A stretch of 64,000 nt of DNA, from NCBI GenBank assembly GCA_902583715.1, contig CACHXC010000005.1:1-64000 (forward strand), in the 5' to 3' direction. Of this stretch, positions 41,046 to 64,000 are shown one piece after another. The stretch's first letter is position 1. The number at the start of each line of letters is the position of its first letter. Source of the DNA: an uncultured SAR116 cluster alpha proteobacterium (lineage in GTDB: Bacteria > Pseudomonadota > Alphaproteobacteria > Puniceispirillales > Puniceispirillaceae). Under the pieces are notes generated by a model, which was given only the letters and a program-made list of their open reading frames with translations, was not told where the DNA came from and did no database searches. The translations under genes were made by a program, and so were the position numbers.

Positions 41046-41051
41046 AGTGAA

Positions 41052-41795: not shown

Positions 41796-44713
41796 TTGTT
41801 GGCCTTGCTAATCTTCTTGAATTGTTTAGTCCACTCAATGCCATACCGAAGTGTTTTTTGGGGTTTTGGATTAACCCCATTCGATCGTGACAAAGCTGGG
41901 AACTGCGGATAAGAAACCTTTGGTTCGTGAGGTTCAGCTTTTGTGATCTGCACCTTCAAATCAAACCAAGCAGCTTGGCCGGTTACTGGATCAGAATTCA
42001 ACCATCTTTGCCCGTCACCTTTAGGAGGCAGCAATTCTTTGATTAGATGATTTAAAAGGAACCCTTTTTTAACCTCCGGAGCGTCATCTTCAAGTTGCCA
42101 TGCGCCCTTCCGTTTGCCGATTGCATTCCATGTCCAGATCGTTTTTTCGTTTAACCCTTCCATTATTGCAACTGGTACCCTTATACGGCCGTGATGGGAA
42201 GTAACCCATATCCAATCACCCTCAACTATTTTATGTTTTTTTGCTAATGAAGGGGCTATAAACATAGGATTGTGGCCATGAATTTGGCGAAGCCATGGGT
42301 TTTGTGAGCCCCAAGAGTGGTACATTGCCATCGGGCGTTGAGTTAACGCATAAAGGGGGAATTTGTCTTCACAAACGGCTACCTCCTCAAACGGTGCGTA
42401 CCATGTTGGCAGTGGTGTAAAACACTTCTTTATTTGCTCTCGCAAATGCTTCGGCGGTTGAACATCGCCGTATCCGCGTGCGGCAAGTTGAAATTTTTGC
42501 AAAACCTCGCTGTAGATTTGGAAAGTATATGGCTGTGGGGTATCGCAAATCCCAATTTCAACGGCAAAATTCTGATACGCCATGTTGGCCATTTTGTAAA
42601 AACGACCTTCCTCGGGTATGTCTTTATGCCAAAAGGCCCCGTTATCTATATACTGGTCAATTTGCCCTGGGTTTGGCTTGCCCCTTCCGGATCTATCTCC
42701 ATTTCCACGAAAACCAGCAAGTGGCCCAATACCAGGTTTCCGTTCATGATTAACGATGTAATCAGCATAATCTTTGTATTTGGGGGTACCATCATCGTTG
42801 ACCATACCAGGCAGCTTCAACCTAGCGCCTAGATCTAATAACACCGACTGAAAACCTCGAACATCACGATCTGGCTCAAAAACTGGCCAACGAATAGCGT
42901 CCGCAACTGCGTCGGCTTCACAAATCGGCCGATCAAGCATTGAAATCGCGTCATGACGCTCAAGGTAGGTGGTGTCCGGGAAAATCAAATCTGCGTATGC
43001 CACCATCTCCGATGAGTAAGCGTCAGAATAAATTATTTTGGGTATTTTATACTCGCCCGTGGACGCATCTTTTTCGGTCAACATCTCCATCACGCCACGT
43101 GTATTCATAGAGGAATTCCACGCCATGTTTGCCATGTACATGAACATGACATCTATATGATATGGATCACCCGCTACCGCGTTGGAAATGACCATGTGCA
43201 TCAAACCATGAGCAGCCATGGGAGCGTCCCAGCTGTAAGCCTTGTCTATTCTCTGCGGATTACCGGCTGGATCGAGCAACAAATCATCAGGTCCTAAAAC
43301 ATATCCCAAAGGAGACCCTGCAAGCGGCCTGCCTGCCTGTATTTGGTTTGGTTTACCTGCGGGCTTCGGATGTGCTTCAGGTGGCTTGGGGTAGGGTGGT
43401 TTAAATCGCCAACCGCCAGGAACTTCAACCGATCCCAGCATAAGTTGCAGCAGATGCAGAGCGCGGCAGGTTTGAAACCCATTGGAATGAGCTGAGATAC
43501 CCCGCATGGCGTGCATCGCCACAGGACGCCCAATCATTTTTTCGTGCTTTTCACCTTTCCAGTCTGTCCAAGGTTGATCGATGACAATTTCTCTCGAAAA
43601 GGCAGCCTCAGCCAGATCCGCAGCAAATTGCCGTATCCTTGCGGCCGAGATACCAACCTTGGGCGAGACGGCCTCGGGTGAGAGGGCCTCTTGCATATAG
43701 GTTTCGCTGATAAGCATGAACGCTGGTACAGCTACGCCGCCATTAACAAGCGAAATCTCCCCGTGCATTGCCGCGCTAATGTTCCTTGTTTGATGAGGAA
43801 CTGCTGAACCAGTTTTTTGATCTAGAACTTGGGGATTGCCATCAGCATCTCGGTAAAACAATCCGTCGTCATCCGCGCCCGGATTGCGGATGACTAGCCA
43901 TGGCGCGTTTGTGTATCTGCGTAGGTAATCGATGTCAATGTTACCCGAGAACATAAGTTCACGGATCAAAGACATGATCAATAATCCGTCAGTACCAGGT
44001 GTTACACCATACCAATCATCTGAAATTGCAGCATATCCAGTTTGAACAGGATTGACTGAAACTACTCGTTTTCCTCTTCCCTTGACCTTACCAAGGCCCA
44101 TCTTTATCGGGTTGGAGTCATGGTCCTCAGCCACGCCAAACAGTACAAACATTTCTGTACGGTCCCAATCCGGTGCACCAAACTCCCAGAATGCACCGCC
44201 AACTGTGTAGATCCCACCGGCAGCCATGTTGACCGAACAAAAACCACCATGCGCCGCAAAATTTGGAGTGCCGAATTGCTGAGCCCACCAACTTGTAAGA
44301 GCTTGTGATTGATCACGTCCTGTGAAAAAAGCCAGTTTTTTTGGGTCGGTTTGGCGAACAGGCTCAAGCCAGTCAGTTGCAGTTTGGAGCGCTTCTTCCC
44401 ACGTGATTGCTTTGAATTCGCCCGAACCCCGTGGACCAACCCGTCTCATGGGTTGTTTGAGCCGAGCGGGTGAATAATGCTGCATAATACCCGCAGACCC
44501 TTTCGCACACAAAACTCCTTTATTGATTGGGTGGTCTTTATTTCCCTCAATATATCGAATTTTGTTGTCGCGAATATGAACATTTATGCCACAACGACAT
44601 GCACACATGTAGCAAGTGGTTTTCCTAATTTCATCCGATACCTCCGGAGAAACATCAACCACTGGTTCACTGGAATTTACACTTTTTTTCAATGCGTTGT
44701 TAAGAGGCACCAT
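41792..44713 (-). CDS. soeA: Sulfite dehydrogenase molybdopterin subunit SoeA
   Basis: A 973-aa molybdopterin oxidoreductase, expected to oxidise sulfite to sulfate in the cytoplasm with SoeBC. The N-terminal cluster motif TTCYMCACRCGINVHIRD with a later GVLCAKGSAG binds a [4Fe-4S] cluster. Molybdopterin-domain pieces include FFTGRDQSQALTSWWAQQFG and, at the C-terminus, GDWIWVTSHHGRIRVPVAI. There is no Tat signal peptide, unlike periplasmic DMSO reductases, which supports the SoeA call. The open frame reaches a TTG at 44758; the ATG at 44713 has AGGAG close upstream. It is divergent from a LysR gene. Confidence 0.88.
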   Translation of the reverse strand: MVPLNNALKKSVNSSEPVVDVSPEVSDEIRKTTCYMCACRCGINVHIRDNKIRYIEGNKDHPINKGVLCAKGSAGIMQHYSPARLKQPMRRVGPRGSGEFKAITWEEALQTATDWLEPVRQTDPKKLAFFTGRDQSQALTSWWAQQFGTPNFAAHGGFCSVNMAAGGIYTVGGAFWEFGAPDWDRTEMFVLFGVAEDHDSNPIKMGLGKVKGRGKRVVSVNPVQTGYAAISDDWYGVTPGTDGLLIMSLIRELMFSGNIDIDYLRRYTNAPWLVIRNPGADDDGLFYRDADGNPQVLDQKTGSAVPHQTRNISAAMHGEISLVNGGVAVPAFMLISETYMQEALSPEAVSPKVGISAARIRQFAADLAEAAFSREIVIDQPWTDWKGEKHEKMIGRPVAMHAMRGISAHSNGFQTCRALHLLQLMLGSVEVPGGWRFKPPYPKPPEAHPKPAGKPNQIQAGRPLAGSPLGYVLGPDDLLLDPAGNPQRIDKAYSWDAPMAAHGLMHMVISNAVAGDPYHIDVMFMYMANMAWNSSMNTRGVMEMLTEKDASTGEYKIPKIIYSDAYSSEMVAYADLIFPDTTYLERHDAISMLDRPICEADAVADAIRWPVFEPDRDVRGFQSVLLDLGARLKLPGMVNDDGTPKYKDYADYIVNHERKPGIGPLAGFRGNGDRSGRGKPNPGQIDQYIDNGAFWHKDIPEEGRFYKMANMAYQNFAVEIGICDTPQPYTFQIYSEVLQKFQLAARGYGDVQPPKHLREQIKKCFTPLPTWYAPFEEVAVCEDKFPLYALTQRPMAMYHSWGSQNPWLRQIHGHNPMFIAPSLAKKHKIVEGDWIWVTSHHGRIRVPVAIMEGLNEKTIWTWNAIGKRKGAWQLEDDAPEVKKGFLLNHLIKELLPPKGDGQRWLNSDPVTGQAAWFDLKVQITKAEPHEPKVSYPQFPALSRSNGVNPKPQKTLRYGIEWTKQFKKISKANK

Positions 44714-44774
44714 AAGCTCCTGTGCAGCAATTTCTTCGTGCTCTAAAATGGATTTCAACGCTTATATTTCACAA

Positions 44775-45955: not shown

Positions 45956-47113
45956 ATGTTAGTAAAACCACACGGACGTGCTGACTTGAACCCTCTGCTG
46001 GTAGAAGAGGCTCAGCGATCTGATCAACTCGCTAAAGCAAAAACTTTGAGACCGGTCACAATGACTTCCCGCGAGTTGTCGGATCTGCTCATGTTTGGTA
46101 TGGGTGCTTACAGTCCATTGGAGGGCTTCATGAACGAGGAGTCCTGGCGGAAATGCTGCACTGATTACAAAACGGACCAAGGACTATTTTGGCCCATACC
46201 CATCACGGTTTCGGTGTCAGAGGATACTGCCTCTAGCATCTCCATCGGCGAGACGGTAGCGCTGACAGACGAAGACTCTAACATCTATGGTACGTTAAAG
46301 GTAGAGGAAAAGTACACGATAGACAAAGATCTAGAGTGCCGGGAGGTATACAGAACCCTTGACCCCAAGCACCCAGGTGTAGAAAAAGTGATGGCACAGG
46401 AGCCAGTGAACCTCGCTGGCTCAGTCACTGTTCTAAATGAAGGGATCTATCCATCAACATACAAGGGTTTGTATTTGAAACCTGAAGAAACTCGGGCAAT
46501 TTTTGAAAAAAATAATTGGTCAACGGTCGCTGCGTTTCAAACTCGAAACCCTATGCATCGTAGTCACGAACACCTCGCAAAAATCGCCATCGAAATTTGT
46601 GATGGGTTGCTTATCCACCAAGTCTTAGGAGCTCTAAAACCCGGTGATATTCCCGCTGAAATCAGGGTTGCTGCGATTGACGCACTAGTTGAGAATTATT
46701 TCGTGCCAGGCACAGCAATACAGGCCGGCTATCCAATTGAAATGCGGTACGCCGGACCACGCGAAGCACTGTTGCACGCCCTTTTCAGACAAAACTTTGG
46801 CTGCTCACATCTTGTTGTAGGCCGTGATCACGCTGGCGTTGGTGACTACTATGGACCTTTTGATGCACACCATATTTTCGATGAAATTCCCAAAGGCAGT
46901 CTCGAAACTCAGCCGTTGAAAATAGACATAGCGTTTTACAGCTACAAGTGCGGAGGAATGGCGACAGGCAGAACCTGCCCCTCCGATGAGAGCCAACGGC
47001 TAAACATATCAGGCACACGTTTAAGAGAAATGTTGGGAAATGGCGAGCCAGTTCCTGAAGAATTCAGCAGGCCCGAGGTTATAGAGGTGTTACGGAGACA
47101 TTATGACGCGTAG
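45956..47113 (+). CDS. sat: ATP sulfurylase, dissimilatory/archaeal type
   Basis: A 385-aa single-chain sulfate adenylyltransferase. In sulfur oxidisers it runs in reverse: APS plus pyrophosphate gives ATP plus sulfate. The active-site motif [13 protein letters not shown] lies near residue 197 and [20 protein letters not shown] near residue 285. [17 protein letters not shown] is the conserved N-terminal region. GAGGGG precedes the ATG. It is the first gene of sat-aprM-aprB-aprA. It is distinct from the CysDN type used for assimilation. Confidence 0.95.
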
Positions 47114-47198
47114 TCACTACAATTGAATTGAGATAAGGTAGTCAGAAGTACCGCTCGGTTATAGCTTACAGGGCGTAAGTTTTTAGGGGAGACAAAAG

Positions 47199-47984
47199 AT
47201 GATTGAAATAAATCCATTTGCTGAACTGTCACGCACAGTATCTGTGGAGGTTATGCAGGGTTTTGTGACATTAATGATCGCCTTAGTTGCAGGAGGAACA
47301 CTGTTTGACATCATCCACAAAGGCAGTGCTAAATACTTCTTTCAACGTTGGTCCCGAGAAAAAGGTGCTAAGCAAAGAGACCCTGACTTGGGTGAGACTG
47401 TTACAACAATAGCGAAGACGACTGTCCACGACGTGCTAACACAAGGTGAATTTTGTAGTTTCAAACGACGGCTTGCTCACCTTTTGTCGATGTGGGGTTT
47501 CGTAGCGTACGCTACAGCTACTTCAGTGATGGTTTACTCATACCCAACCGACGCAATTTCCACGCCGGCCTATTGGCCGCAACTTTGGTGGGTTGGTGCC
47601 GCGATGGTCTCCGCAGGCGGCTACTGGTTCTGGTTCTTTATCCGGGTCGACGTTGCAGCAGAGGGCAATTCACCATTCAGATTTGTTAGAGCGGATCTTT
47701 TTGTTGTCTCGCTAGTTTTGAGCACAACCTTCGCGCTGATTTGGGCTTATTGTCAGGCTACAGACTCGTCAATGACGTTAGTGGCGCTTGCACTATATTT
47801 GATTTCAACAACTGTTCTGTTTGGTTCTGTGCCTTGGTCAAAATTTTCGCACATGTTTTTCAAGCCAGCAGCAGCTTATCAGAAAAATCTTGCTCACTTG
47901 AATGGTGGCAGAAATCATTTGCCCGCTCCAGCTGATAAACCAGCGATTTTGGGTAAGCCAAAAAAACATAGTCACAATTATTAG
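47199..47984 (+). CDS. aprM: AprM membrane protein, proposed anchor of APS reductase
   Basis: A 261-aa membrane protein with five or six segments. DIIHKGSAKYFFQRWSREKG near residue 40 and KRRLAHLLSMWGFVAYATAT fit the AprM family, which replaces QmoABC in some sulfur oxidisers as electron link between AprBA and quinone. The C-terminus is hydrophilic. It follows sat by 85 nt and precedes aprB by 25 nt. Family role is from literature on AprM; sequence recognition here is good. Confidence 0.9.
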   Translation: MIEINPFAELSRTVSVEVMQGFVTLMIALVAGGTLFDIIHKGSAKYFFQRWSREKGAKQRDPDLGETVTTIAKTTVHDVLTQGEFCSFKRRLAHLLSMWGFVAYATATSVMVYSYPTDAISTPAYWPQLWWVGAAMVSAGGYWFWFFIRVDVAAEGNSPFRFVRADLFVVSLVLSTTFALIWAYCQATDSSMTLVALALYLISTTVLFGSVPWSKFSHMFFKPAAAYQKNLAHLNGGRNHLPAPADKPAILGKPKKHSHNY

Positions 47985-48009
47985 GATAGAGAAATTATAG
48001 GAGAGAGAA

Positions 48010-48510
48010 ATGCCAACATTTGTATATATGACAGCGTGCGATGGTTGTGGACATTGTGTAGACATTTGCCCATCTGACATTATGCACATTGACCCTACAA
48101 CACGGCGCGCAGTTAACATTGAACCAAATTTTTGCTGGGAATGTTACTCATGTGTAAAAGCTTGTCCACAGAACGCCATTGATGACCGTGGATACTCAGA
48201 TTTTGCGCCAATGGGGCACAAAGTGAGGGTATTGAGAGAACCCGAAAAAGGTACTATATCTTGGCGCTTAAAATTCCGTGATGGTAGAGAAAAGAATTTT
48301 GTCTCTCCAATTCGAACCACAGAGTGGGGTTCAATCAAATGCGCCTCTGAGTACGAACAGCCATCAACCGCTAGTTTTGATAGCGCAGAGCTTGCTCATG
48401 AGCCTGATTATTTGAAAGCCGATGGTGGATTGCGCACAATTTCGAAGCAGCAATTCAAAAAACATCCAATTGCAAAAGAAAAAACAAGCAACTTAAAAGC
48501 TGCTGAATAA
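48010..48510 (+). CDS. aprB: Adenylylsulfate reductase beta subunit
   Basis: A 166-aa iron-sulfur subunit. Two [4Fe-4S] motifs, CDGCGHCVDICP at residues 10-21 and CWECYSCVKACP at 42-53, are followed by the characteristic C-terminal tail that wraps AprA (TTEWGSIKCASEYEQP). In reverse APS reductase it passes electrons from AprA to the membrane. GGAGAGAG lies just before the ATG. aprA follows after 30 nt. Confidence 0.96.
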   Translation: MPTFVYMTACDGCGHCVDICPSDIMHIDPTTRRAVNIEPNFCWECYSCVKACPQNAIDDRGYSDFAPMGHKVRVLREPEKGTISWRLKFRDGREKNFVSPIRTTEWGSIKCASEYEQPSTASFDSAELAHEPDYLKADGGLRTISKQQFKKHPIAKEKTSNLKAAE

Positions 48511-48540
48511 CCAGGCTTTAAAAATTTAGGGAGAAAGCTC

Positions 48541-50394
48541 ATGGCCGGTAAGAAAACTCATTTTGTGGACTCTGATATACTCGTCATTGGTGGCGGATTC
48601 GGTGGCTGCGGCGCAGCTTATGAGTCCCGCTACTGGGGCAGAGATAAAAAGATTGTCGTGGTCGAAAAAGCTAATATCGAGAGAAGCGGCGCAGTCGCGC
48701 AGGGGCTTTATGCCATCAATTGCTACATGGGAATGCGCTGGGGACAAAACGAACCTGAAGACTATGTTCGCTATCAAAGAAACGATTTGATGGGATTAGT
48801 CCGCGAGGATTTGGGCTATGATATCGGCCGCCACGTTGACTCAACCGTCCATAAATTCGAGGAATGGGGTCTCCCCATAATGACCGATGAAAATGGTCAA
48901 TATCAGCGCGAAGGCAAATGGCAAATCATGATTCATGGTGAAAGCTATAAGCCGATAGTAGCTGAAGCTGCCCGTAAAGCTGCAACCGAAGTTTACAACC
49001 GAATTATGGTAACACACCTCCTCAAAGACAAAAAACAGCCGAACAGAGTTGCTGGAGCAGTTGGATTCAATGTTCGAACTGGAGATTTTTACGTTTTTCA
49101 ATCAAAAGCTGTGATTGTTGGTGCAGGGGGCGCATCGCACATATTTAAGCCGCATTCCGCAGGGGAAGGCATGGGACGTACTTGGTATGCTCCATGGAGT
49201 AGTGGATCTGCTTACGCGCTTCCAATTCGAATTGGCGCAAAAATGACGCAGATGGAAAATCGTATCGTTTTGACAAGATTCAAAGACGGGTATGGGCCTG
49301 TTGGCGCGTATTTTCTTCATTTGAAAACATACACTCAAAATGGATTTGGTGAGGCATATGAGCCAAAGTGGCGGGACTCTATCGAAAAAATGGTCGGCGA
49401 CTACGTTAATCACGAGCCAGTTCCGACATGTTTGCGCAACCACGCCTTCTTGAAAGAAGTTGAAGCTGGTGGTGGGCCAATAAGAATGGTCACAAAAGAA
49501 GCGTTTAAAGACCCCCACAAGGAAATTGTGGGCTGGGAAAACTTTCTTGGAATGACAATTGGTCAAGCTGTGGTCTGGGCCGCAAACAATATCGACCCGA
49601 AAGAAATCAATCCAGAACTTGTGATGTCAGAACCTTACGTCATGGGATCACATGCTACGTGCTCCGGTGCTTGGGCAAGCGGGCCCGAAGACTACGCCCC
49701 AGATGAGTATCAGTGGGGCTATAATCGTATGATGACGGTCGATGGACTTTTTGGAGCGGGTGATACTTTAGGTGGAACGCCTCACAAGTTTTCATCGGGC
49801 TCTTTCACAGAAGGTAGATTAGCAGGCAAAGCGGCAGTGAAGTATGTTGATGACCTAAAGGGCAACACGCCTGAGGTCGACGAGTCAGAGTACATGGAGC
49901 TGAAACAGGAAATTTACCAACCGCTCGAAAACTACAGAGTTGGGCGTAATGAAATTACAGCTGGCACAGTCTCTCCTAGCTACATGCTCCCTCTTGCAGG
50001 ACTGCAACGATTAGAGAAGATTATGGACGAGTACTGTGGCGGATGTGGCCAACGTTACATGGTAAACACTCCACTAATGGAGCGTGGTATTGAACTCCTG
50101 AAGATGCTAAGAGAAGATCTCGCAAACCTTGGCGCCGACGGACTGCATCAATTACTGCGCGCCTGGGAGTTACACCACCGCGTGTTAGCATCTGAGTGTG
50201 TAATGGCGCACACAATGTATCGTGAAGAGACACGTTGGCCAGGTTACTACTACCGTGGAGATTTCCCGAAACTCGATGACAAAAAGTGGCATTGTTTCAC
50301 TTTGTCTCAATATGATGAAGAGACCGGTGAATTTCACATGGAAAAGGCTCCAGTGTATCACATAGTGGACGAGCACAAAAAAGCAGCTGAATAA
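48541..50394 (+). CDS. aprA: Adenylylsulfate reductase alpha subunit
   Basis: A 617-aa flavoprotein that in the oxidative direction joins sulfite and AMP to form APS. The FAD motif DILVIGGGFGGCGAAYESRY is at residues 11-30, followed by RSGAVAQGLYAINCYMGMRW, a hallmark of AprA. FKPHSAGEGMGRTWYAPWSS and GSHATCSGAWASGPEDYAP contribute to the substrate site. GAGAAAG precedes the ATG. Last of the sat-aprMBA genes proper; a phosphoesterase gene follows after 13 nt. Confidence 0.97.
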   Translation: MAGKKTHFVDSDILVIGGGFGGCGAAYESRYWGRDKKIVVVEKANIERSGAVAQGLYAINCYMGMRWGQNEPEDYVRYQRNDLMGLVREDLGYDIGRHVDSTVHKFEEWGLPIMTDENGQYQREGKWQIMIHGESYKPIVAEAARKAATEVYNRIMVTHLLKDKKQPNRVAGAVGFNVRTGDFYVFQSKAVIVGAGGASHIFKPHSAGEGMGRTWYAPWSSGSAYALPIRIGAKMTQMENRIVLTRFKDGYGPVGAYFLHLKTYTQNGFGEAYEPKWRDSIEKMVGDYVNHEPVPTCLRNHAFLKEVEAGGGPIRMVTKEAFKDPHKEIVGWENFLGMTIGQAVVWAANNIDPKEINPELVMSEPYVMGSHATCSGAWASGPEDYAPDEYQWGYNRMMTVDGLFGAGDTLGGTPHKFSSGSFTEGRLAGKAAVKYVDDLKGNTPEVDESEYMELKQEIYQPLENYRVGRNEITAGTVSPSYMLPLAGLQRLEKIMDEYCGGCGQRYMVNTPLMERGIELLKMLREDLANLGADGLHQLLRAWELHHRVLASECVMAHTMYREETRWPGYYYRGDFPKLDDKKWHCFTLSQYDEETGEFHMEKAPVYHIVDEHKKAAE

Positions 50395-53199: not shown

Positions 53200-54096
53200 T
53201 CAAAACGATAATTCATCAAACTCTGCTATATTGTTAATACGACAACACGCAGTCAGCGTATTAGCCAGTAGACAGGCGATCGTCATAGGCCCAACGCCAC
53301 CCGGCACCGGAGTGATAGCCCCAGCAACAGCCGCACAGCTCTCATAGTCCACATCTCCAACCAGTTTTGTTTTGCCATCTGCCGTGTCAATGCGATTGAT
53401 GCCAACATCAATAACCGTCGCCCCCGGCTTTATCCAATCACCCAGAACCATCTCCGGTCGCCCAACAGCTGCAACAACAATGTCAGCGCGGCGAACAACA
53501 TCTGGTAAATCAACGGTACGTGAGTGTGCGATTGTCACAGTACAGCTATCATTCAAAAGTAACTGTGCCATCGGCTTGCCAACAATATTTGATCGGCCAA
53601 TTACAACTGCGTTTTTGCCTGACAATGACTCATGATGATCACGCAGCATCAATAAGCAACCTAACGGTGTGCAGGGCACCATTGATTTTTGACCAGTACC
53701 CAAAAGCCCTACATTTGCAATATGAAAGCCGTCAACATCCTTTTCTGGGGCAATACGGTTAATTACCAATGACTCGTCAAGATGGCTCGGCAGTGGCAAT
53801 TGCACCAGAATGCCATGAACCGTTGGGTCGGCATTTAAACTGTCAATCAAGTCCAACAAAACATCCTCAGACGTTTCAGCATCGAGTTTGTGTTCAAAAG
53901 AATTCATCCCAGCCTCTACGGTCTGTTTGCCTTTTGATCGCACATAGACCTGTGATGCTGGATCAGAGCCAACCAGCACAACCGCAAGGCCTGGGGTGAT
54001 GCCGTGTGCACCCTTCAGGTTGTTGACTTTTTCAGCAACCTTTTGCCTAACAACGGCAGCGAAGGCTTTTCCATCGATAATTTGTGCTGACGTCAT
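53200..54096 (-). CDS. folD: Methylenetetrahydrofolate dehydrogenase/cyclohydrolase
   Basis: A 298-aa bifunctional enzyme interconverting methylene-, methenyl- and formyl-THF. [20 protein letters not shown] holds the catalytic Lys region, [13 protein letters not shown] and PEKDVDGFH are family signatures, and [18 protein letters not shown] binds [19 protein letters not shown] closes the protein. It lies 85 nt after fhs on the same strand, a common pairing for C1 oxidation to formate or its assimilation. Confidence 0.97.
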
Positions 54097-54181: not shown

Positions 54182-55867
54182 TTAAAACAGGCCTTCGATT
54201 TCGCCATTTTTATTGACACAGATGGTCTCTGCCGCTGGTGCTCTTGGGAGGCCGGGCATAGTCATTATTTCGCCACACACCACCACGATAAAGCCAGCCC
54301 CGGCACTTATTCGTACCTCACGCACCGGAATTACATGGCCAGTTGGTGCGCCACGCTGATTGGGATCAGTCGAGAAGCTATATTGGGTTTTTGCCATACA
54401 GACAGGCAAATGCCCATAGCCCTGCTCCTCCCAGTCTTTCAGCTGGTCCAGGATTTTCTTATCCATCACCGCTTCATCCGCCCGGTAAATCCGTTTGCAA
54501 ATGGTTTGCACCTTGTCAGCCAATGGCATGTCATCTGGATAGATTGTTGAAAAATCAGCCATATCCGAATCCGCAACCTCAGCCACCCGCTTAGCCAGAT
54601 TTTCTGATCCAGCAGACCCATCCGCCCAATGTTTTGATACAATGGCTTCAGTTCCCATTTCCGCACAATAATCCTGAACAGCCTTTACCTCGGCATCGGT
54701 GTCTTTGACAAAATGGTTGATTGCAACCACCACCGGCACCCCAAAGGATTTCAGATTTTCAATGTGACGGCCAAGGTTTGGACACCCAGCCTTCACCGCC
54801 GCCACATTTTCTTCATTCAGATCATTTTTCGCCACGCCACCATTCATCTTCATTGCCCGCACTGTGGCCACAAGCACCACCACCGATGGTGCCAGACCAG
54901 CTTTGCGACATTTTATATTTAAGAATTTCTCAGCGCCAAGATCAGCCCCAAACCCAGCTTCAGTTACAACATAATCAGCCAGCTTTAATGCTGTAGTCGT
55001 AGCAATCACCGAATTACACCCATGCGCAATATTGGCAAATGGGCCACCATGCACAAAGGCTGGGTTATTTTCTAAAGTTTGCAGAAGATTAGGTTGTATT
55101 GCATCTTTCAACAATACCGTCATCGCCCCATCAGCTTTGATGTCACGGCAAAATACCGGCGAGCGATCACGCCGATAAGCCACAATCATATCGCCAAGAC
55201 GCTTCTGCAGATCAGCCAAATCTTTGGCTAAGCACAAAATCGCCATCACTTCAGACGCTACTGTGATGTCAAACCCAGCTTCGCGCGGAAAGCCGTTAGC
55301 CACCCCACCAAGCGAGGCAGTGATCTGGCGCAACGCCCGGTCATTCATATCAACAACCCGCCGCCAAACAACTCGGCGAGTATCAATTTCCAACTCATTG
55401 CCCCAGTAAATGTGATTATCAATCATCGCCGATAGCAACGAATGCGCCGATGTGATGGCATGAAAATCACCAGTAAAGTGCAAATTCATATCTTCCATCG
55501 GCACAATCTGCGCATAACCACCACCAGCAGCGCCGCCCTTCATACCGAAGTTTGGCCCTAATGATGCCTCGCGGATGCAAATCATCGCTTTCTTACCAAT
55601 CCGGTTCAAACCATCACCAAGACCAACCGTTGTCGTGGTCTTGCCCTCGCCAGCCGGCGTTGGGTTGATCGCTGTCACCAAAATCAATTTGCCATTCGGC
55701 CGGCCCTGTACCGAATTAATAAAGTTCTGACTAATCTTCGCCTTGTCATGCCCAAATGGCACCAAATCCGCCGCCGGTATGTTCAATGACTCACCAATCT
55801 CAAAAATCGGCTTCTTCTGCGCCGAACGTGCAATTTCTATGTCACTCACAGTAATGCTCCCCAACAT
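54182..55867 (-). CDS. fhs: Formate-tetrahydrofolate ligase
   Basis: A 561-aa ATP-dependent enzyme joining formate to THF, or running in reverse to release formate and make [23 protein letters not shown] is the nucleotide-binding loop near residue 65. [20 protein letters not shown] and the C-terminal [17 protein letters not shown] are conserved. The ATG at 55867 gives the usual length; the TTG at 55894 is an alternative. It precedes folD and follows a panB-like gene after a strong hairpin. Confidence 0.97.
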
Positions 55868-55985
55868 TTTCTGAGATTTTGCCAAATCAGCCAAATCATA
55901 TAGCGCCTAATCACCAAAATTCACCTGAGTGTTGAAACTGTTGCGAGCAACTATCTTGGTATGCTTAGAACAATGCAGGCTTAAC

Positions 55986-56044: not shown

Positions 56045-56932
56045 CTAACCAAGCTCGTCTAATTTTCTTTCCCACTTCATATCTGTGGCAAACTTGCGGA
56101 GTTCATCCTCAGGCATGTTGATGGTTTCCGCAGGCCCAGGGTAACTTCTGGTCTTTACGTCATCCATATATCGAGTGATCACATCTTCCATGATTGGGAT
56201 TAGATCAGTGTATATTCTTGAGTGCTTTGGCACATGCTCTTCCCAGAGATGGAAAAGATCAGAAGAAATAATGTGGACACCGTCTGCGCAGTTTCCAGCA
56301 CCAAGGCTGATGACAGGAACTGGAAGAATTTCAGCAAGATACTCAGCAACTTCAGAGGTGGTCACTTCGCACAATATTGAAAAACAACCGGCATCATACA
56401 TTGCTTTCGCATCATCGATTAACTCTTTAGCACGATCAGCAGTTTTTCCCTGAGCAACAAATCCACCCAGTTGAGGCATACGCATTGGCGTTATGCCAAT
56501 GTGGCCTTGAACAGGAATACCAGCACTGACAATAGCTTCGATTGCCGGCACATGATGACGGTTACCTTCACACTTCATTACCTCAGCGTTAGCTTCATGC
56601 ACAAATCGCCCAGCATTTTCAACAGCTTGCTCTTTTGAAACATGGAAACTCCAATATGGCATATCAACCATTCTTAGCCCATATTGTGAGCCACGGTCGA
56701 TAGCCTTAGACATCATCATGACTTCATCAAAACTGACACTTGTCGTGCTTTGATGTCCAAAAAGAATCATCCCACCAGTATCTGATACGCACAAAATATC
56801 CATGCCAAGCCGATCAGCGACAACTGCTGTGCGGTAATCATAAGCTGCTAACTGCGTAATTGGCTCTCCAGCTTCCATTTTCTTCTGAAGAGTTTTAAAT
56901 GTGACTTTGCGTCTTGGTTTAGTATCACTCAT
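56045..56932 (-). CDS. Ketopantoate hydroxymethyltransferase (PanB)-like protein
   Basis: A 295-aa TIM-barrel protein homologous to PanB, which transfers a hydroxymethyl group from methylene-THF to 2-oxoisovalerate. Likely metal and catalytic residues are kept: Asp in CVSDTGGM and VDMPYW, Lys and Glu in VMKCEGN, His in QGHIGITPM, and Glu in ILCEVTTSE. GGGGGAGGG lies about 5 nt before the ATG at 56932. No panC or panD is nearby. Its position before fhs-folD suggests a C1-transfer role, perhaps on another oxo-acid, rather than, or besides, pantothenate synthesis. Confidence 0.85.
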   Translation of the reverse strand: MSDTKPRRKVTFKTLQKKMEAGEPITQLAAYDYRTAVVADRLGMDILCVSDTGGMILFGHQSTTSVSFDEVMMMSKAIDRGSQYGLRMVDMPYWSFHVSKEQAVENAGRFVHEANAEVMKCEGNRHHVPAIEAIVSAGIPVQGHIGITPMRMPQLGGFVAQGKTADRAKELIDDAKAMYDAGCFSILCEVTTSEVAEYLAEILPVPVISLGAGNCADGVHIISSDLFHLWEEHVPKHSRIYTDLIPIMEDVITRYMDDVKTRSYPGPAETINMPEDELRKFATDMKWERKLDELG

Positions 56933-57102
56933 ACCGACCCTCCCCCGTTCATTTGTAATAATCACTCAGCCAAGACGACGTTCACCCTTCGAATTGGATA
57001 AGTTATTGTTTAGATTAGGATCAAATTCTCGCTTAAATAAAATGCTTAATTACTATTAGCTTTATCATCAAAGCTATTATCAAAGATACAAACAGCCCAA
57101 AC

Positions 57103-57852
57103 TTAGCCTAATAGAAGAAGAAGAACCATATAAACTCCTGATGCAAATAGTAAAAACGCGACCAGTGTTTTGATATAGTCTATTGGCAGCAGCTCCGATC
57201 CTTTGGCACCGAACAATGAACCAAACGCTACCCCAAAACCCAAAACCAGAACGAGTTCCCAATCGATAAGAGAATTGAGCGCATTGCCAATTGTGGCAAA
57301 CGTAGAGATTGGCAACTGAATGACTTGTGAGAGACCGATAGCTGTTATCAAAGGCATTGATAACCAAGTCAATAACGGCAGTAAAACCAGTGGCCCCCCA
57401 GTTCCACTCAGAACAGATAAGAATCCAGTCACCAACCCAACAAATGCCAACTGATATTTTGGCCTATTGCGCGTTGGATTAACCGGGTTGCTGCTATCAC
57501 TACGTATAAATTGCCTAACTGCCGATAATATGAGAACTAGCGCGATAAAAAGTGTAAGGAAATAGGACTCTATTTTTGGTAAAACATAAGCACCTAATAG
57601 AGCACCCGGTATCGCACCAACGCACACCGATACAAAATCTGGCCATTGAATGATACCCCGTTGAGAATACACAACCGTGCCAACCAAACCTGAAACGAAA
57701 AAAGCGGCCACAGAAGCGGCTATGCTCGTGTGAATATCAATTCCAGAAACATACACTAATAATGGAACCAGAATCACACCACCAATGCCAGCGGCACCAA
57801 TCAACAAGCCAGCAATCAGGCCAAACAGGAAACAGATGGAGAGAAGCGTCAT
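57103..57852 (-). CDS. TauE/SafE (TSUP) family membrane transporter, small form
   Basis: A 249-aa membrane protein with about eight segments and the family's two repeats: GLLIGAAGIGGVILVPLLVY and VTGFLSVLSGTGGPLVLLPL. It is shorter than the TSUP gene at 52.1 kb and is not a close copy. The substrate is probably a sulfur oxyanion or organic acid; this is inference. It is divergent from a LysR gene. Confidence 0.9.
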   Translation of the reverse strand: MTLLSICFLFGLIAGLLIGAAGIGGVILVPLLVYVSGIDIHTSIAASVAAFFVSGLVGTVVYSQRGIIQWPDFVSVCVGAIPGALLGAYVLPKIESYFLTLFIALVLILSAVRQFIRSDSSNPVNPTRNRPKYQLAFVGLVTGFLSVLSGTGGPLVLLPLLTWLSMPLITAIGLSQVIQLPISTFATIGNALNSLIDWELVLVLGFGVAFGSLFGAKGSELLPIDYIKTLVAFLLFASGVYMVLLLLLG

Positions 57853-58000: not shown

Positions 58001-58951
58001 ATGTTTCTTAAGCAACTTGAATATTTGATTGCTGTAATCGAAGAGGATCACTTCGGAAGGGCAGCTTCTCGCTGCAATGTTAAACAACCCAGCCTCTCAA
58101 ACGGCATTAAACAACTTGAGTTAGAACTTGGCGTAACACTATTTAAACGAGGCCGCGGTCAGCGTTTGTATGGGGTCACAGAAGAGGGAAAACGGGTTGC
58201 AGAGTGGTCTCGCATTATTCTTGCCAATTGCACTTCTATGCGAGACACAATTTCAGAAATGCAGAACAACCTAAGTGGCACTATCCGGCTTGGCGCAATA
58301 ACTTCGATGTCACCAGTTTTGCCGATCATCCTACAACGAATCCGAAAAGCTTACCCTTTAGTTTCAGTTGATGTTCGTTTCGTAGGAAACGAGGAATTGC
58401 AGACTGGTTTGGATAATTTCTCGATTGACTGCGGAATAACATACATGGATCAGGCAACTGAAATGCCATGGTGTGATGTGGTGCCAATTTTTGAAGAGAC
58501 ATGGAGCTTGCTCGTCCCAGACTCGTTTGAGTTTGAAGAAATGGATGAGATTAGCTGGGAACAAGCAGGTGACTTGCCACTAGCTTTACTTCGGCCATCA
58601 ATGTATGAGCGCGCCATCGCAGAGGAAACATTTACTAGAGCAGGAAAGAAAGTCACACCCAAGATCGAGTCTGAGTCGATACTGCACCTAATGTTTCAAA
58701 CACAATTTACGGAGCTTTGCACTATCATACCTTCCCATTACACACGAATGCCAGGACTTCATTCTGGAACAAAAGCTTTACTGCTGAAGGACCCAGTTAT
58801 TAGAAAAGGGATCGGCTTATTTTGGTTAAAAACTGAAACAGAAATCCCAATAACAAAAATCACTGAGGAGGTTGGTCGGTCTTTAGCAGAGAATGGCGAA
58901 CTACAAAAATTCCTCTATCGGGACAATCTTTACGATTCAATGGACAACTAA
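58001..58951 (+). CDS. LysR-family transcriptional regulator
   Basis: A 316-aa regulator. The helix-turn-helix starts MFLKQLEYLIAVIEEDHFGR and the effector domain begins SGTIRLGAITSMSPVLPIIL. AAAGG lies about 10 nt before the ATG. It is divergent from the small TSUP gene and convergent with the Rieske-like gene, separated by a bidirectional terminator. It probably controls the TSUP gene and possibly the nearby C1 genes. Confidence 0.93.
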   Translation: MFLKQLEYLIAVIEEDHFGRAASRCNVKQPSLSNGIKQLELELGVTLFKRGRGQRLYGVTEEGKRVAEWSRIILANCTSMRDTISEMQNNLSGTIRLGAITSMSPVLPIILQRIRKAYPLVSVDVRFVGNEELQTGLDNFSIDCGITYMDQATEMPWCDVVPIFEETWSLLVPDSFEFEEMDEISWEQAGDLPLALLRPSMYERAIAEETFTRAGKKVTPKIESESILHLMFQTQFTELCTIIPSHYTRMPGLHSGTKALLLKDPVIRKGIGLFWLKTETEIPITKITEEVGRSLAENGELQKFLYRDNLYDSMDN

Positions 58952-58968
58952 TTTTTTATTATGAAAAC

Positions 58969-58998
58969 AAAAAAGGGGCACCTAAACGCCCCTTTTTT
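58969..58998. terminator. Bidirectional terminator between LysR and Rieske-like genes
   Basis: AAAAAAGGGGC, an 8-nt loop and GCCCCTTTTTT form a symmetric hairpin with A and T runs on both sides. It lies between the convergent stops at 58951 and 59016 and can terminate transcription from either direction. Confidence 0.93.
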
Positions 58999-59015
58999 AA
59001 AATCTAAAGTTATTT

Positions 59016-60104
59016 TTACTCAGCGGCCATCACATTGTCACCGCCCAAGCCAAGAGGATTGGCCGGAGAAACTCCCAGGAAATTACCCCATGCTTCGTAG
59101 TAATGTCGCATGCCAACTTCATCATGAATTGTCGAATTCTCGTGGCGACCATGTAAAATGTTACGAGTTTCGGTGCCCTCTCTCATGGTGGTGCCCTGAC
59201 CGGCAACACCAATCAAATCTTCATGTAGGTTACGACCAAATGGCCCCCAAATCGAATTGTGATGCTTAATCCTGGTCGCGCGGTCTTCTTTGGAGTCGCT
59301 TTTCAAACCATAGCCTCTAAATTCAATCATGACCTTGTTTGGGCCAAGAGGTGTTACAGAGTCACTTCTGTAAGCACTACCACGGAGGTTAAAATTAAAC
59401 CCAGGAAACAAATCAACCATGTACCACTGGTTCGGTGGCAGATTAGGGAAAGATAGCTCCCCTCTATCGTCAAACCCGTCATACTCTTCGTAATTTACCG
59501 TGAAACTGCTTACGTTAACATGACCGTTATCAAATGGGATGTTTTTCCGCGCGAAATATTCGTCGTTAAAACCAGACACACGGTTAAAATAATGCATGAA
59601 ATCATGGTAGAATTCACTGTTAGTGTCATGCCAAAGCTTGTAGTTAGTATCAATGACAGCTTTGTGGTAATGGAAAACATCTAACTCTTCTTCGTCAATC
59701 GCATCGGCGATACAGTCAAATGCGCCGCAAGTCCACTCTTCCACACTTTGTGAAGGGTTAGGATCGAGAGTTATCCAAACCATGCCACCATGTTTGACTT
59801 CACTGTGCAGCTTTTTCAGACCATCGGTGTCAATACCGTTTCCTGCAGGCCGGTCGCTTGATGGGCACAAAAACGCTTCAACAGTGTCACCACGGTTAAC
59901 AGCAACAACATTTTGATGGGCTATTTGGGAAGATCTGAAATCGCCTTTGTTCGACATTTCGCTTGTATGACAAACAGGAACCCATACTTTTGAAAAGATT
60001 TGCTCAATCTCTTGCTGATAAATGCTATGGTTGTTGTAGCATTCGCTAGATATGAATTCCACCTTGGGCTTCTTCAACCAATTTTTGTGATTTCTAGGCG
60101 CCAT
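59016..60104 (-). CDS. Rieske-oxygenase alpha-subunit-like protein lacking the Rieske cluster motif
   Basis: A 362-aa protein with the architecture of ring-hydroxylating oxygenase alpha subunits. The N-terminus (IFSKVWVPVCHTSEM, then DFRSSQIAHQNVVAVNRGD) leads normally to the Rieske domain. Where CxH and CxxH ligands should occur there is only VEAFLCPSSDRPAGNGIDTD, and no CxH or CxxH exists anywhere in the protein. The catalytic domain keeps HDTNSEFYHDFMHYFNR with candidate iron ligands H167 and H171, and a C-terminal WGPFGRNLHEDLIG. GGGAG precedes the ATG. Enzymatic activity without a [2Fe-2S] cluster is questionable, so it may be a redirected enzyme or a binding protein. Confidence 0.75.
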   Translation of the reverse strand: MAPRNHKNWLKKPKVEFISSECYNNHSIYQQEIEQIFSKVWVPVCHTSEMSNKGDFRSSQIAHQNVVAVNRGDTVEAFLCPSSDRPAGNGIDTDGLKKLHSEVKHGGMVWITLDPNPSQSVEEWTCGAFDCIADAIDEEELDVFHYHKAVIDTNYKLWHDTNSEFYHDFMHYFNRVSGFNDEYFARKNIPFDNGHVNVSSFTVNYEEYDGFDDRGELSFPNLPPNQWYMVDLFPGFNFNLRGSAYRSDSVTPLGPNKVMIEFRGYGLKSDSKEDRATRIKHHNSIWGPFGRNLHEDLIGVAGQGTTMREGTETRNILHGRHENSTIHDEVGMRHYYEAWGNFLGVSPANPLGLGGDNVMAAE

Positions 60105-60389
60105 TTTCTACTCCCGAACATAAACAGTGCGCGACAGATCTCGCAATATACATACCAAATATCGGCGATCTTGGCTTTCATGTCAATCTACGCGTTAAGG
60201 ATTTGCTAAAATCGGCTAATAGTCTGAACCAATAAAGAGATAACTCTCACTCATCATTTTCTTGCAGTTGGTTCCCATCAGTACTTCATGTAGGATGACA
60301 GACACGTGTCAAAAGACAAAACGTTAAGTGACAAAACTTGCCGCATTGTCCAATAGCGGTAAAAATCCCAAGCGACGTGGAATTTTCTT

Positions 60390-61331
60390 ATGGTACGAAA
60401 CGGAATGAATGATCCAAACAACGGCTTTTTATATAGTGGACATGCCAGCGATCAGGAGGCCCTGATCAAAAAAGCGTCGAAAGACAATCCAAAAGAATTT
60501 ATTTTCGTCCGCGCAACCAGTTCAACGGTTCTAGAGACCGCCCGAAAAGCCCATAAGTTAAAGCTCGTCAAACCAATTTTAGTTGGCGAACGGAAAGCAA
60601 TTGAAAAAGCATCAAATTCAATTGGTTGGTCCCTCAAAAATATCGACGTTGTCGCTACAAATGATGAAGAAGATGCCATCTCCTCTTCTGTAAATCTCTT
60701 TAAATCTGGTAATATTTCGGGTTTCGTAAAGGGTAACCTACACACAGATACATTCATGGGCGGCCTTGTCAAAAGAGAGGCTGGAGTTCGGGCTGGCCGA
60801 CGACTTGTTCATGTCTTTGTCATGCTGCCTCCTAACGGGGGCGAGCCACTTTTAATAAGTGACGCTGCGATAAATATAAGACCCGACATTAACACCCGCG
60901 TTGAGGCAGCACTCTTAATGGCTGAAATGTCACGAAAACTGGGTTGCACACGACCAAAAGTAGCGGTTCTATCAGCTACTGAGAGCATTCTGCCTGCTAT
61001 GCCGTCAAGCGTCGAAGCAGTTGAAATTGCCAGATTGGCTCGAGAGAAAGATCCTGATGCAGATTTTTTTGGGCCCCTTTCTTTTGATCTTGCAATTTCA
61101 CCTAGAGCCACTGCCGAAAAGGGTATAACTAACCAAGTAGCTGGCAGGGCCAACGCACTTGTTGTACCCGACATTGTATCAGGTAATATTCTGTTCAAGT
61201 CTCTTGTTTGGTGTGCAGGCGGATTGGCAGCTGGTTTGGTTTTAGGTGGCGCCGTGCCAATAGTATTGACCAGTCGCTCTGATCCACCAGAAGCAAGACT
61301 TGCAGCTATAGCACTCGCATCTCTAGCGTGA
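60390..61331 (+). CDS. Phosphate acetyl/butyryltransferase-like protein
   Basis: A 313-aa protein of the Pta/Ptb family, which exchanges CoA for phosphate on acyl groups. KPILVGERKAIEKASNSIGW near residue 60, SGFVKGNLHTDTFMGGLVKR, KVAVLSATESILPAMPSSVE and the C-terminal NILFKSLVWCAGGLAAGLVL are family features. The ATG at 60390 is used; an ATG five codons in is possible. No ack or buk kinase is adjacent. It is divergent from the Rieske-like gene, which could supply the acyl compound, but this is inference. Confidence 0.88.
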   Translation: MVRNGMNDPNNGFLYSGHASDQEALIKKASKDNPKEFIFVRATSSTVLETARKAHKLKLVKPILVGERKAIEKASNSIGWSLKNIDVVATNDEEDAISSSVNLFKSGNISGFVKGNLHTDTFMGGLVKREAGVRAGRRLVHVFVMLPPNGGEPLLISDAAINIRPDINTRVEAALLMAEMSRKLGCTRPKVAVLSATESILPAMPSSVEAVEIARLAREKDPDADFFGPLSFDLAISPRATAEKGITNQVAGRANALVVPDIVSGNILFKSLVWCAGGLAAGLVLGGAVPIVLTSRSDPPEARLAAIALASLA

Positions 61332-61371
61332 AATTTTAGTATCAAGTGCAATAAATATGTTTAGCAAAATA

Positions 61372-62508
61372 TTAAATCGCAGTAATTTTTTGGAAATTAC
61401 TGTAGAAACGGCGTGAACAAACAATAGCTTTCCGGCTTTTGACTGAATAACAGCTGTCCCCAAAAACGCAAATTTGGTTACCATTGACGGCTAACTCAGG
61501 TTTGATCTGAGCAATTGCGATCGTTTTACCGAGCCATGCACTTACTGCGTGGCTAGTTATTTTACCAACAGTCTGCCCGTTCGCATACAAGAAGCTGTGT
61601 TCGTACAACGGGCTAAGCCCATCAATGGTCAAGCCAACAATCTTGTGCCTTGGCATTCGGGATTTTTTCTCCCACGCAGTTTTTCCACGAAAATGTTTTT
61701 TCGAACCATCAATTATAAAGTCGAGCCCAAGTTCAGTTGGAGTCTCAGAGCCTGTCATATCACGTCCAAAAAATAACAAGCCTGCCTCAATCCGGGCGAT
61801 ATCGATTGCATCGAATCCAACAGGCACGGCTCCATTCGAAACCAGATAGTTCCATACATGGATTGCGTGCTGAGATTTTACGAAAATTTCAAAACCATCC
61901 TCACCTGAATAACTGGTACGCGCAATCATTACATCTGAGTCTGAAATGGAAAACAGCCCATGTTCGAAACGTCCAAGATTTACAGGCAGTGGCCCCCTAA
62001 CGATCCTTTTAATCACAGTCGCCGCATGTGGCCCTTGCAACATCAGGCATACTGTATCATCGTCAGCCCGCGCAATAACTTCGGTACCCTCCAGTGACTT
62101 CGAGAGGTAGTCCACACCAAAGCCAGCACCAAAACAAATCAACCAAGACGCATCAAATTTTTCAGACTCTAGCGATGACAGACGAAAGACTATTGCATCG
62201 TCAATCACGTATCCGTTCTCATTCAGCAAAGCTGCATAAGTGGCCACACCTGGTTTGATCTTATTGCAATCGCGTGTAATCAAAAAATCTATAACTTCAG
62301 AAGCACCTGAACCCTTGAGCCATATCTTTTTTATACCCGACATATCTGTGAGGCCAGCAGCCTTGCGGATCGCTTTGTGCTCAGACTCAACTCCCTTGCT
62401 ATAACTTTTTGAGACTGGCATCTGGTTCCAGACGAAAAAGTCAGCGCCAAGAGCCTCATGAACTGAAACTATCGGGCTGGATCTGGAATTTGCAAAGCTT
62501 ACCCGCAT
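61372..62508 (-). CDS. GcvT/DmdA-family aminomethyltransferase-like protein
   Basis: A 378-aa protein of the T-protein fold used by GcvT, DmdA and other THF-dependent demethylases. DMSGIKKIWLKGSGASEVID opens the folate-binding domain. LLNENGYVIDDAIVFRL carries the Asp that is catalytic in GcvT. SYSGEDGFEIFVKSQHAIHV and DIARIEAGLLFFGRDMTGSE are typical later elements. The ATG at 62508 shares one base with the TGA of the upstream GldG-like gene. It would pass a methyl or methylene group to THF. The substrate is unknown; DMSP is possible but the N-terminus is not DmdA-like. Confidence 0.83.
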   Translation of the reverse strand: MRVSFANSRSSPIVSVHEALGADFFVWNQMPVSKSYSKGVESEHKAIRKAAGLTDMSGIKKIWLKGSGASEVIDFLITRDCNKIKPGVATYAALLNENGYVIDDAIVFRLSSLESEKFDASWLICFGAGFGVDYLSKSLEGTEVIARADDDTVCLMLQGPHAATVIKRIVRGPLPVNLGRFEHGLFSISDSDVMIARTSYSGEDGFEIFVKSQHAIHVWNYLVSNGAVPVGFDAIDIARIEAGLLFFGRDMTGSETPTELGLDFIIDGSKKHFRGKTAWEKKSRMPRHKIVGLTIDGLSPLYEHSFLYANGQTVGKITSHAVSAWLGKTIAIAQIKPELAVNGNQICVFGDSCYSVKSRKAIVCSRRFYSNFQKITAI

Positions 62509-64000
62509 CAAAATTTTCTGATCCTTTGAGATCTCCGTCTAAAATCTCGCAGTATCAATAAAATAACAGCAGAAAAAATTGGACCACAAATAAGGTTTAG
62601 CAATATTGTTACTTGGAACAGCTCATTGACATCCTGCCTAATTTGAAGCCGAATTTTCCGAAGCTCTTCTTTCAGCGGATATATCATCTCTCGAATTTTA
62701 AGAACTTCCAGTTTGAGAGACTCCGGTAAATCGTTTTCAGTCTTCGCATTTGCTAGTTTTAGAAACTGCCTGATATTTTCCTCAGCCGCGTTTATGCTTG
62801 AGGCAAACTCAACCTCTTTCGAGTGATATTTTTCTCGGCTAGCAACTAACATTTCTTCAACTTTTGAAAAAACTCTGACCGGGCTTTTTCTAGACCTAAT
62901 CTCCAATAAGTCTTCCGAGCCAGCTGAGAGCTCCACCAAGTTCAAAAACAAATTGTGATTATCGTTAATAGGTCTGGACAGAGCTGCAGCCGTGGATCCA
63001 ACACCCGCTCTGCTGAAACCATCATAAAGCCAATCAGTATCTCCAACCAACACCAAAGATGCTGACGTTTTTAGATCGTTTGCATTGTTGCGCAGGAATG
63101 GGGATGACAATTTTTCGTTGACCCGACCGACAATAATTTTTGGAGCCTGCACATCGCTTTCAAAGGCCAATGAGAGTTCTCCCGTGCTCTTCTCATTAAA
63201 CGAGGCGCGCGTTTCTATGGAAATTTGTTCACTGGTGACAACAATTGGCTTTAAAAAATTAGACCCTTCCTCTGAGGTAAAGCCTCCTGCCTCTGCAAAC
63301 AATAACTCATTAAGATTGGCAACAACTGGCTCATCTTTTGTCATGTTTTTTTCGCGCAGTCTTAGCCAATATGGATACGCGAAATTTTTGCCGTTTCCTG
63401 TCTCCACATTTGCGGCATTTTCAAAATCACCAACAACACCATCACGAGAAAATTCTATTCCATAAAATTGTATCAGATCCGCAATTGTGTTGATTTTCCC
63501 TATCCCCGATAGCCCCAATTCCAATTTAGCGTTGGCTTCGTTCATACGCTGAAAAGGATCGAGCATTATTATTGCACTTCTACCCTCTTGAATGTGTTGA
63601 TCGATTGCCTTGACCATCGCCTGCCGGATGATTGGCGCATCAAAAATTATCAGGACATCATATTGTTCATCTAAACTCTCAGCAAAATATGGAAGGACAG
63701 ACACGTCGTATTGACGTTTTAGGTCCTCTATTACGGATAAACCAGGGTGTGTCGTGTGTGCATTAGAGGGCTTAAGCACTGAGGACAACAGAGCTATCCT
63801 TGGTGGCTGTGCGCGTTGTAAATTGCTCAGCTGGAGTGCGAGGTCATATTCCAGCGAGGCTGCCCGATTCACATCTATGTAACCAGTTGTTAAAGAGCGA
63901 TCCTCTTTACTGATAACCATACCAAAGTAGAATTCGTCACCTGAAGACATCGGTATACGAGCGATGCCAGCACTTTCCGCCTCATCAGCTTCGCGACTAT
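62508..64000 (-). CDS. GldG-like ABC transporter accessory protein (5' end cut by window edge)
   Basis: The minus frame is open from the right edge to a stop at 62508, about 497 codons in the window. It includes EFYFGMVISKEDRSLTTGYI and RAASLEYDLALQLSNLQRAQ, typical of the GldG/ABC_transp_aux family that works with ABC-2 exporters. A long helical stretch (about residues 360-450) precedes a single C-terminal membrane segment, ILLNLICGPIFSAVILLILR. The ATG at 63950 is internal because the frame continues to the edge with homologous sequence. The ATPase and permease genes presumably lie to the right. Confidence 0.85.
   Translation of the reverse strand, partial: SREADEAESAGIARIPMSSGDEFYFGMVISKEDRSLTTGYIDVNRAASLEYDLALQLSNLQRAQPPRIALLSSVLKPSNAHTTHPGLSVIEDLKRQYDVSVLPYFAESLDEQYDVLIIFDAPIIRQAMVKAIDQHIQEGRSAIIMLDPFQRMNEANAKLELGLSGIGKINTIADLIQFYGIEFSRDGVVGDFENAANVETGNGKNFAYPYWLRLREKNMTKDEPVVANLNELLFAEAGGFTSEEGSNFLKPIVVTSEQISIETRASFNEKSTGELSLAFESDVQAPKIIVGRVNEKLSSPFLRNNANDLKTSASLVLVGDTDWLYDGFSRAGVGSTAAALSRPINDNHNLFLNLVELSAGSEDLLEIRSRKSPVRVFSKVEEMLVASREKYHSKEVEFASSINAAEENIRQFLKLANAKTENDLPESLKLEVLKIREMIYPLKEELRKIRLQIRQDVNELFQVTILLNLICGPIFSAVILLILRDFRRRSQRIRKF

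Follow-up and report, generated by a model that had tools for sequence, protein, structure and literature searches.

In Rieske oxygenases, the iron of each subunit receives its electrons from the Rieske cluster of a neighbouring subunit; for NdmA/NdmB, the two sites lie 44.7 Å apart within a chain and 12.1 Å apart between chains (PMC10380055). A conserved carboxylate bridges the Rieske and iron sites and has been described as essential for electron transfer (PMC5033481). Among the methanesulfonate monooxygenases MsmABCD, known from a Methylobacterium nodulans plasmid and from Methylosulfonomonas and Filomicrobium (PMC4433239), the alpha subunit MsmA is recognised by a Rieske motif with a 26-residue spacer, CxH-X26-CxxH. 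MsmA sequences without a Rieske motif were noted in SAR116, in ocean metagenomes (GOS) and in phage HMO-2011 in 2015 and left unexplained (PMC4433239). The HMO-2011 “MsmA” also appears in PMC4928673, and the role of phage “MsmA” as an auxiliary metabolic gene is taken up there and in PMC10134843; neither PMC4433239 nor PMC4928673 ties the Rieske-less MsmA to a partner without an iron site. An external Rieske arrangement is known from the 7-methylxanthine demethylase NdmC/NdmD/NdmE, in which a Rieske-less oxygenase subunit works with a Rieske-bearing reductase (PMC10380055).

The 64,000-nucleotide stretch of SAR116 DNA analysed here (the window) encodes an MsmA homologue whose pseudo-Rieske domain lacks the cluster motif. 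We refer to this Rieske-less, MsmA-type oxygenase alpha subunit as alpha-prime. Its features are the following:

59016 to 60104, minus strand: alpha-prime coding sequence, 362 amino acids, ATG start; pseudo-Rieske domain at about residues 20–110, then an intact catalytic domain
60110 to 60115, minus strand: Shine-Dalgarno sequence GGGAGT, 5 nt ahead of the ATG (by sequence)
59817 to 59867, minus strand: linker, residues 80–96, beginning CPSSDRPAGNGIDTDGL, where canonical MsmA has its Rieske CxH-X26-CxxH loops (from the ligand table and from alignment to canonical MsmA and to the partner F described below)
59592 to 59615, minus strand: motif EFYHDFMH with E164 (bridging carboxylate) and H167 and H171 (iron ligands), predicted from the alignment
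59217 to 59219, minus strand: D296, predicted third iron ligand, in the motif NLHEDLIG (alignment)
58968 to 58999, minus strand: intrinsic terminator downstream of the alpha-prime stop (by sequence)

A preliminary description of the window had reported an alpha-subunit layout with a His-x3-His segment in the iron region, a Cys-poor linker where CxH...CxxH should stand, no such motif elsewhere in the protein, and an intact frame with a good ribosome binding site and terminator. Every one of these observations withstood closer analysis. In the alignment with MsmA the Rieske segment is collapsed to a linker of fewer than 20 residues with a single orphan cysteine, C80. The H-x3-H has the usual spacing of the MsmA family, E164 sits three residues ahead of H167, and the D296 carboxylate is also in place. 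Alpha-prime is thereby predicted to have the 2-His-1-carboxylate iron site and bridging carboxylate of a Rieske oxygenase alpha subunit, while the N-terminal CxH...CxxH of such subunits is lacking in alpha-prime and in all orthologues examined; neither CxH nor CxxH occurs in alpha-prime or in 10 cellular orthologues. In a Pfam scan the catalytic domain PF00848 was the sole match (28.5 bits against a cut-off of 24.9) and the Rieske domain PF00355 was not detected, whereas the same scan of canonical MsmA returned both.

The rest of the Rieske barrel is still recognisable in the sequence and in an AlphaFold2 model of alpha-prime (pTM 0.86), which shows the Rieske oxygenase fold across both domains, Rieske barrel and helix-grip catalytic domain, and matches NagG and NDO with a Z of about 32 over about 316 residues. 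Carnitine monooxygenase CntA (by sequence) and salicylate 5-hydroxylase NagG (by fold, Z about 32) are among the best PDB matches; both carry the Rieske and iron sites within one chain. Sequence kinship and gene context place alpha-prime with MsmA: its catalytic domain is about 70% (68–71%) identical to that of the plasmid-borne MsmA of M. nodulans, and beta, ferredoxin and sulfonate transporter genes belong to the same locus. The hallmark CxH-X26-CxxH (PMC4433239) is missing from alpha-prime and present in F and in the canonical copies.

In the family of the host genome (61 genomes searched) we found 13 alpha-prime copies in 12 genomes, 81–93% identical and with the identical deletion. A wider contig scan yielded 80 loci, comprising 17 Rieske-less copies, 15 of which belong with SAR116, and 63 canonical MsmA, of which 62 have a readable 26-residue spacer and one has an X at a ligand. 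Orthologues with the deletion were thus found in SAR116 genomes as well as in 160 of 160 viral loci. An assembly or annotation artefact that conceals the Rieske motif has a negligible probability: no point in its support was found, and it is refuted by sequences of several kinds that all carry the deletion, namely SAGs, MAGs, IMG/VR contigs, the single-contig genome G020 and the isolate phage HMO-2011. The preliminary description had named an assembly error and a deletion in this copy alone as the cases that would overturn its reading; both are excluded because the same deletion is found in many independent assemblies and in all orthologues found, and its view of the gene as maintained rather than decayed is borne out.

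Alpha-prime has an MsmA-like, Rieske-bearing partner, which we call F. The F gene is located on the same contig about 11 kb away (71188–73574) and escaped the preliminary description because it lies beyond the end of the window. In most relatives F is one protein of about 800 amino acids, consisting of an MsmA-like N-terminal part followed by a BphA4/HcaD-type FAD reductase. Its Rieske motif CxH-X26-CxxH is intact and its iron site is gone; accordingly, Pfam finds PF00355, Pyr_redox_2 and Reductase_C, with no PF00848 above threshold. The AlphaFold2 model of F is poor (pTM 0.41). Genes for an MsmB-like beta subunit and an MsmC-like ferredoxin come after F, and a sulfonate ABC transporter of the SsuA/TauA type is oriented divergently to F.

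The fusion in F is not universal. In the window's genome F is split into two ORFs, 71188–72180 and 72177–73574, that overlap by ATGA (L021:14189–16575), while relatives have a single ORF; the split reflects either gene fission or a frameshift. One canonical MsmA locus (L183:6871–8187) encodes its BphA4-type reductase as a protein of its own, with 57% identity to the reductase part of F; this layout is a possible source arrangement of the fusion. The canonical MsmA closest to F by Rieske domain, with both sites, is on a SAR116 MED-G04 MAG contig (L162). Several SAR116 clusters also contain, close to the ferredoxin or alpha-prime gene, a gene for a protein of about 280 amino acids without a Pfam match (L021:17611–18486 and equivalents); diverged homologues of this protein lie near 13 canonical msm loci.

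The losses in the two proteins are reciprocal. In a ligand table, E/H/H/D is present in 26 of 26 cellular alpha-prime rows and the Rieske ligand set in none of them (0/26); the four Rieske ligands are present in 15 of 15 F and the iron triad in none (0/15); canonical MsmA has all Rieske and iron-site residues in 65 of 65 rows, with one H reading X. The bridging carboxylate aligns in every alpha-prime and is absent from every F. Most F are deleted for the ligand-bearing segments themselves, LWHDTNSEFYHD and NLHEDLIG..., the NLHEDLIG-type segment (D296 region) being deleted in all F. In the F of G020 the first segment is still there with its ligands substituted (KFHQDFMK), a form that would fit an earlier stage of decay, as expected. 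All 15 F have an unchanged 26-residue Rieske spacer, and F retains the entire alpha-subunit frame.

Sequence constraint follows the same division. F copies average 83% identity to one another over the Rieske half and 49% over the dead half, compared with 92% for the catalytic half of alpha-prime and 80/82% for MsmA. For the G013/G014 pair, the only one with measurable dS throughout (dN/dS is saturated in most pairs), dN/dS is 0.009 for the alpha-prime catalytic domain, 0.009 for the F Rieske domain and 0.19 for the dead domain of F. By these sequence comparisons the surviving sites are under strong constraint and the dead catalytic domain of F under far less, and what constraint remains on the latter is consistent with a structural role.

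These patterns bear on two alternatives. Alpha-prime might be reduced directly by the small MsmC-like Rieske ferredoxin or by other host reductants, with F acting mainly as reductase and scaffold. An intact gene for this ferredoxin follows the beta gene in those alpha-prime loci that are long enough to show it, and the ferredoxin has the same kind of Rieske cluster, but no part of the alpha-like half of F is more constrained than its Rieske domain (dN/dS 0.009), its 26-residue spacer is unchanged in 15/15 F, and a mere reductase would not need the whole alpha-subunit frame; we regard this route as unlikely. Alternatively, alpha-prime could be a non-catalytic or regulatory pseudo-subunit, some other enzyme oxidising methanesulfonate, as the lack of a cluster normally essential to the enzyme might suggest. 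This is highly improbable given that the iron triad and bridging Glu are invariant in 26 cellular rows and 160 viral loci, that purifying selection is strongest on the catalytic half of alpha-prime, and that the locus encodes just one further MsmA-like protein, F, whose iron site is gone.

The two genes also occur together. F is found in 12 of the 12 family genomes with alpha-prime, counting for G006 an F at a contig end (the C-terminus only, plus a fragment on another contig), and neither gene is found in any of the other 49 (0/49), which have only unfused reductase homologues. In G010, G011, G013 and G014 alpha-prime directly follows the F operon. G002 carries the whole split-oxygenase cluster twice (G002:C45 and G002:C16; L025, L026), with two alpha-prime and two F. 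In unconstrained trees F clusters with the canonical MsmA of SAR116 MED-G04 and of Filomicrobium-like bacteria, and alpha-prime forms its own clade; a single clade of alpha-prime and F is not rejected (AU p 0.089), and the F branch is very long.

Taken together, we consider it likely, with a probability of roughly 80%, that the two proteins form a split methanesulfonate monooxygenase, with alpha-prime as the oxygen-activating half and F as the source of the Rieske cluster and reductase. The substrate pocket and the mononuclear non-heme iron would reside in alpha-prime, which has lost its own [2Fe-2S] Rieske cluster. Electrons would run from NAD(P)H through the FAD of F and the MsmC-like Rieske ferredoxin to the Rieske cluster of F, and from there across the subunit interface, via the bridging Glu164, to the iron of alpha-prime, which would activate O2 and convert methanesulfonate to formaldehyde and sulfite. 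A mixed oligomer alone would suffice to place the two sites in different subunits, because ordinary Rieske oxygenases already pass the electron to the iron of the neighbouring subunit. We infer the physical complex of alpha-prime and F, its stoichiometry and the order of electron transfer from sequence; the oligomer would have to differ from a plain alpha3beta3, since a trimer ring cannot perfectly alternate two subunit types.

The genes around alpha-prime bear on the substrate:

58001 to 58951, plus strand: LysR-family regulator, convergent with alpha-prime and kept beside it in relatives whose loci extend that far
57103 to 57852, minus strand: TauE/SafE (sulfite exporter family) permease, conserved in the locus
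56045 to 56965, minus strand: PanB-family hydroxymethyltransferase, C1-related, conserved in the locus
54182 to 55894, minus strand: formate-tetrahydrofolate ligase (Pfam, FTHFS), folate C1 handling beside the locus
53200 to 54096, minus strand: FolD-like protein (by sequence inspection), folate C1 handling
45956 to 50394, plus strand: sat, membrane anchor, aprB and aprA, candidates for sulfite oxidation to sulfate
40131 to 44758, minus strand: DMSO-reductase-family molybdoenzyme, Fe-S subunit and membrane anchor, dmsABC- or soeABC-like, candidates for sulfite oxidation

A trio homologous to the last entry lies inside the msm-like cluster of G020, and a published SAR116 study placed msmA near a dmsABC cluster (PMC8547437). 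Methanesulfonate is the probable substrate by homology and gene context, namely the catalytic-domain identity to MsmA, the Rieske signature of F, the sulfonate transporter, TauE, sat/apr, the dmsABC/soeABC-like trio and the C1-folate genes. Between alpha-prime and the transporter/F part of the locus, the window holds phosphotransacetylase-like, GcvT/DmdA-like and ABC-export genes (60390–63950).

Outside cellular genomes, alpha-prime is annotated in phage HMO-2011 (ADW08429.1), which was isolated on SAR116, and at least 594 IMG/VR stretches carry it. The iron motifs are present in 160 of 160 viral loci and the Rieske motif in none (0/160); these loci are two overlapping sets of 80, so that distinct contigs are slightly fewer. 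Viral copies have a median dN/dS of about 0.10 (285 pairs). On 163 viral or phage-like loci alpha-prime was the only msm gene found, and the F query returned only two distant reductase matches among viral sequences. If the split reading is true, phages with alpha-prime encode only the oxygen-activating half, functional only in hosts with a Rieske donor.

The solitary phage copies could be taken to mean that alpha-prime works independently of F by non-Rieske chemistry, with peroxide, another small reductant or a different substrate. The host of the phage can provide F, however, the two proteins co-occur in 12/12 cellular genomes, and both the bridging Glu and about 70% catalytic-domain identity to MsmA are retained, which makes F-independent chemistry very unlikely. 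The preliminary description had offered an external electron route and a non-Rieske use of the fold; the former is the best supported, and the latter was judged unlikely in view of the invariant bridging carboxylate and of a Rieske-bearing partner in every family genome with alpha-prime.

The same description had considered such an arrangement new, which holds in part. External Rieske supply and Rieske-less MsmA were already known from NdmC/NdmD (PMC10380055) and from the 2015 report (PMC4433239), and the HMO-2011 and ocean-metagenome sequences belong to the same family and have the same deletion as alpha-prime. In the largely non-subscription literature searched, there was no mention of the reciprocal loss, of the strict co-occurrence or of what they imply for the phage gene, and to that extent these are new. 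In contrast to MsmABCD, the alpha-subunit sites are on two proteins in SAR116, and the FNR-type MsmD has its counterpart in a BphA4/HcaD-type FAD reductase, mostly fused to the Rieske-bearing subunit. With the Ndm system, compared by description, SAR116 shares a Rieske domain on the partner reductase (PF00355 with Pyr_redox_2/Reductase_C in F, on two ORFs in the window's genome). NdmD, however, carries it on an FMN/plant-ferredoxin reductase, whereas the donor F is a degenerate full-length alpha subunit that has kept its dead catalytic domain; the SAR116-type iron half is also widespread in phages, and reciprocal decay of two alpha homologues is not described for the Ndm system in the review PMC10380055.

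The split gives a testable account of the MsmA anomaly noted since 2015. If true, it means that a Rieske oxygenase can distribute its two redox sites over a pair of homologues that have decayed reciprocally, and it offers a natural setting in which inter-subunit electron transfer could be measured with the two sites on separate genes. For surveys of msmA, requiring the 26-residue spacer counts F and misses alpha-prime, and searching by catalytic domain does the reverse.

In trees rooted on canonical MsmA, a distant outgroup, the SAR116 copies form one clade (support 98–100) within viral diversity. Viral monophyly is rejected for the full protein (AU p 0.011) and not rejected for the catalytic domain alone (p 0.079). 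On these trees it is plausible that the cellular alpha-prime descends from a phage gene; the same topology could also result from several separate transfers into phages from hosts outside the sample. Tentatively, and at less than even odds, a Rieske-less iron subunit may have become established in marine phages that used the Rieske donor of their host, a SAR116 ancestor may have captured the phage gene, and its own MsmA may then have lost the active site and become the Rieske-plus-reductase donor. Were phage capture true, an abundant ocean bacterium would rely for one of its catabolic enzymes on a phage-derived subunit.

Finally, one contig binned as a “Rickettsiales” MAG (L155, PALK01000009.1) carries alpha-prime amid phage-type genes, by eye both ribonucleotide reductase subunits and heme-oxygenase-like, Hsp20-like and tail-fibre-like genes, and is likely a misbinned phage contig; L156 groups with it in the tree.
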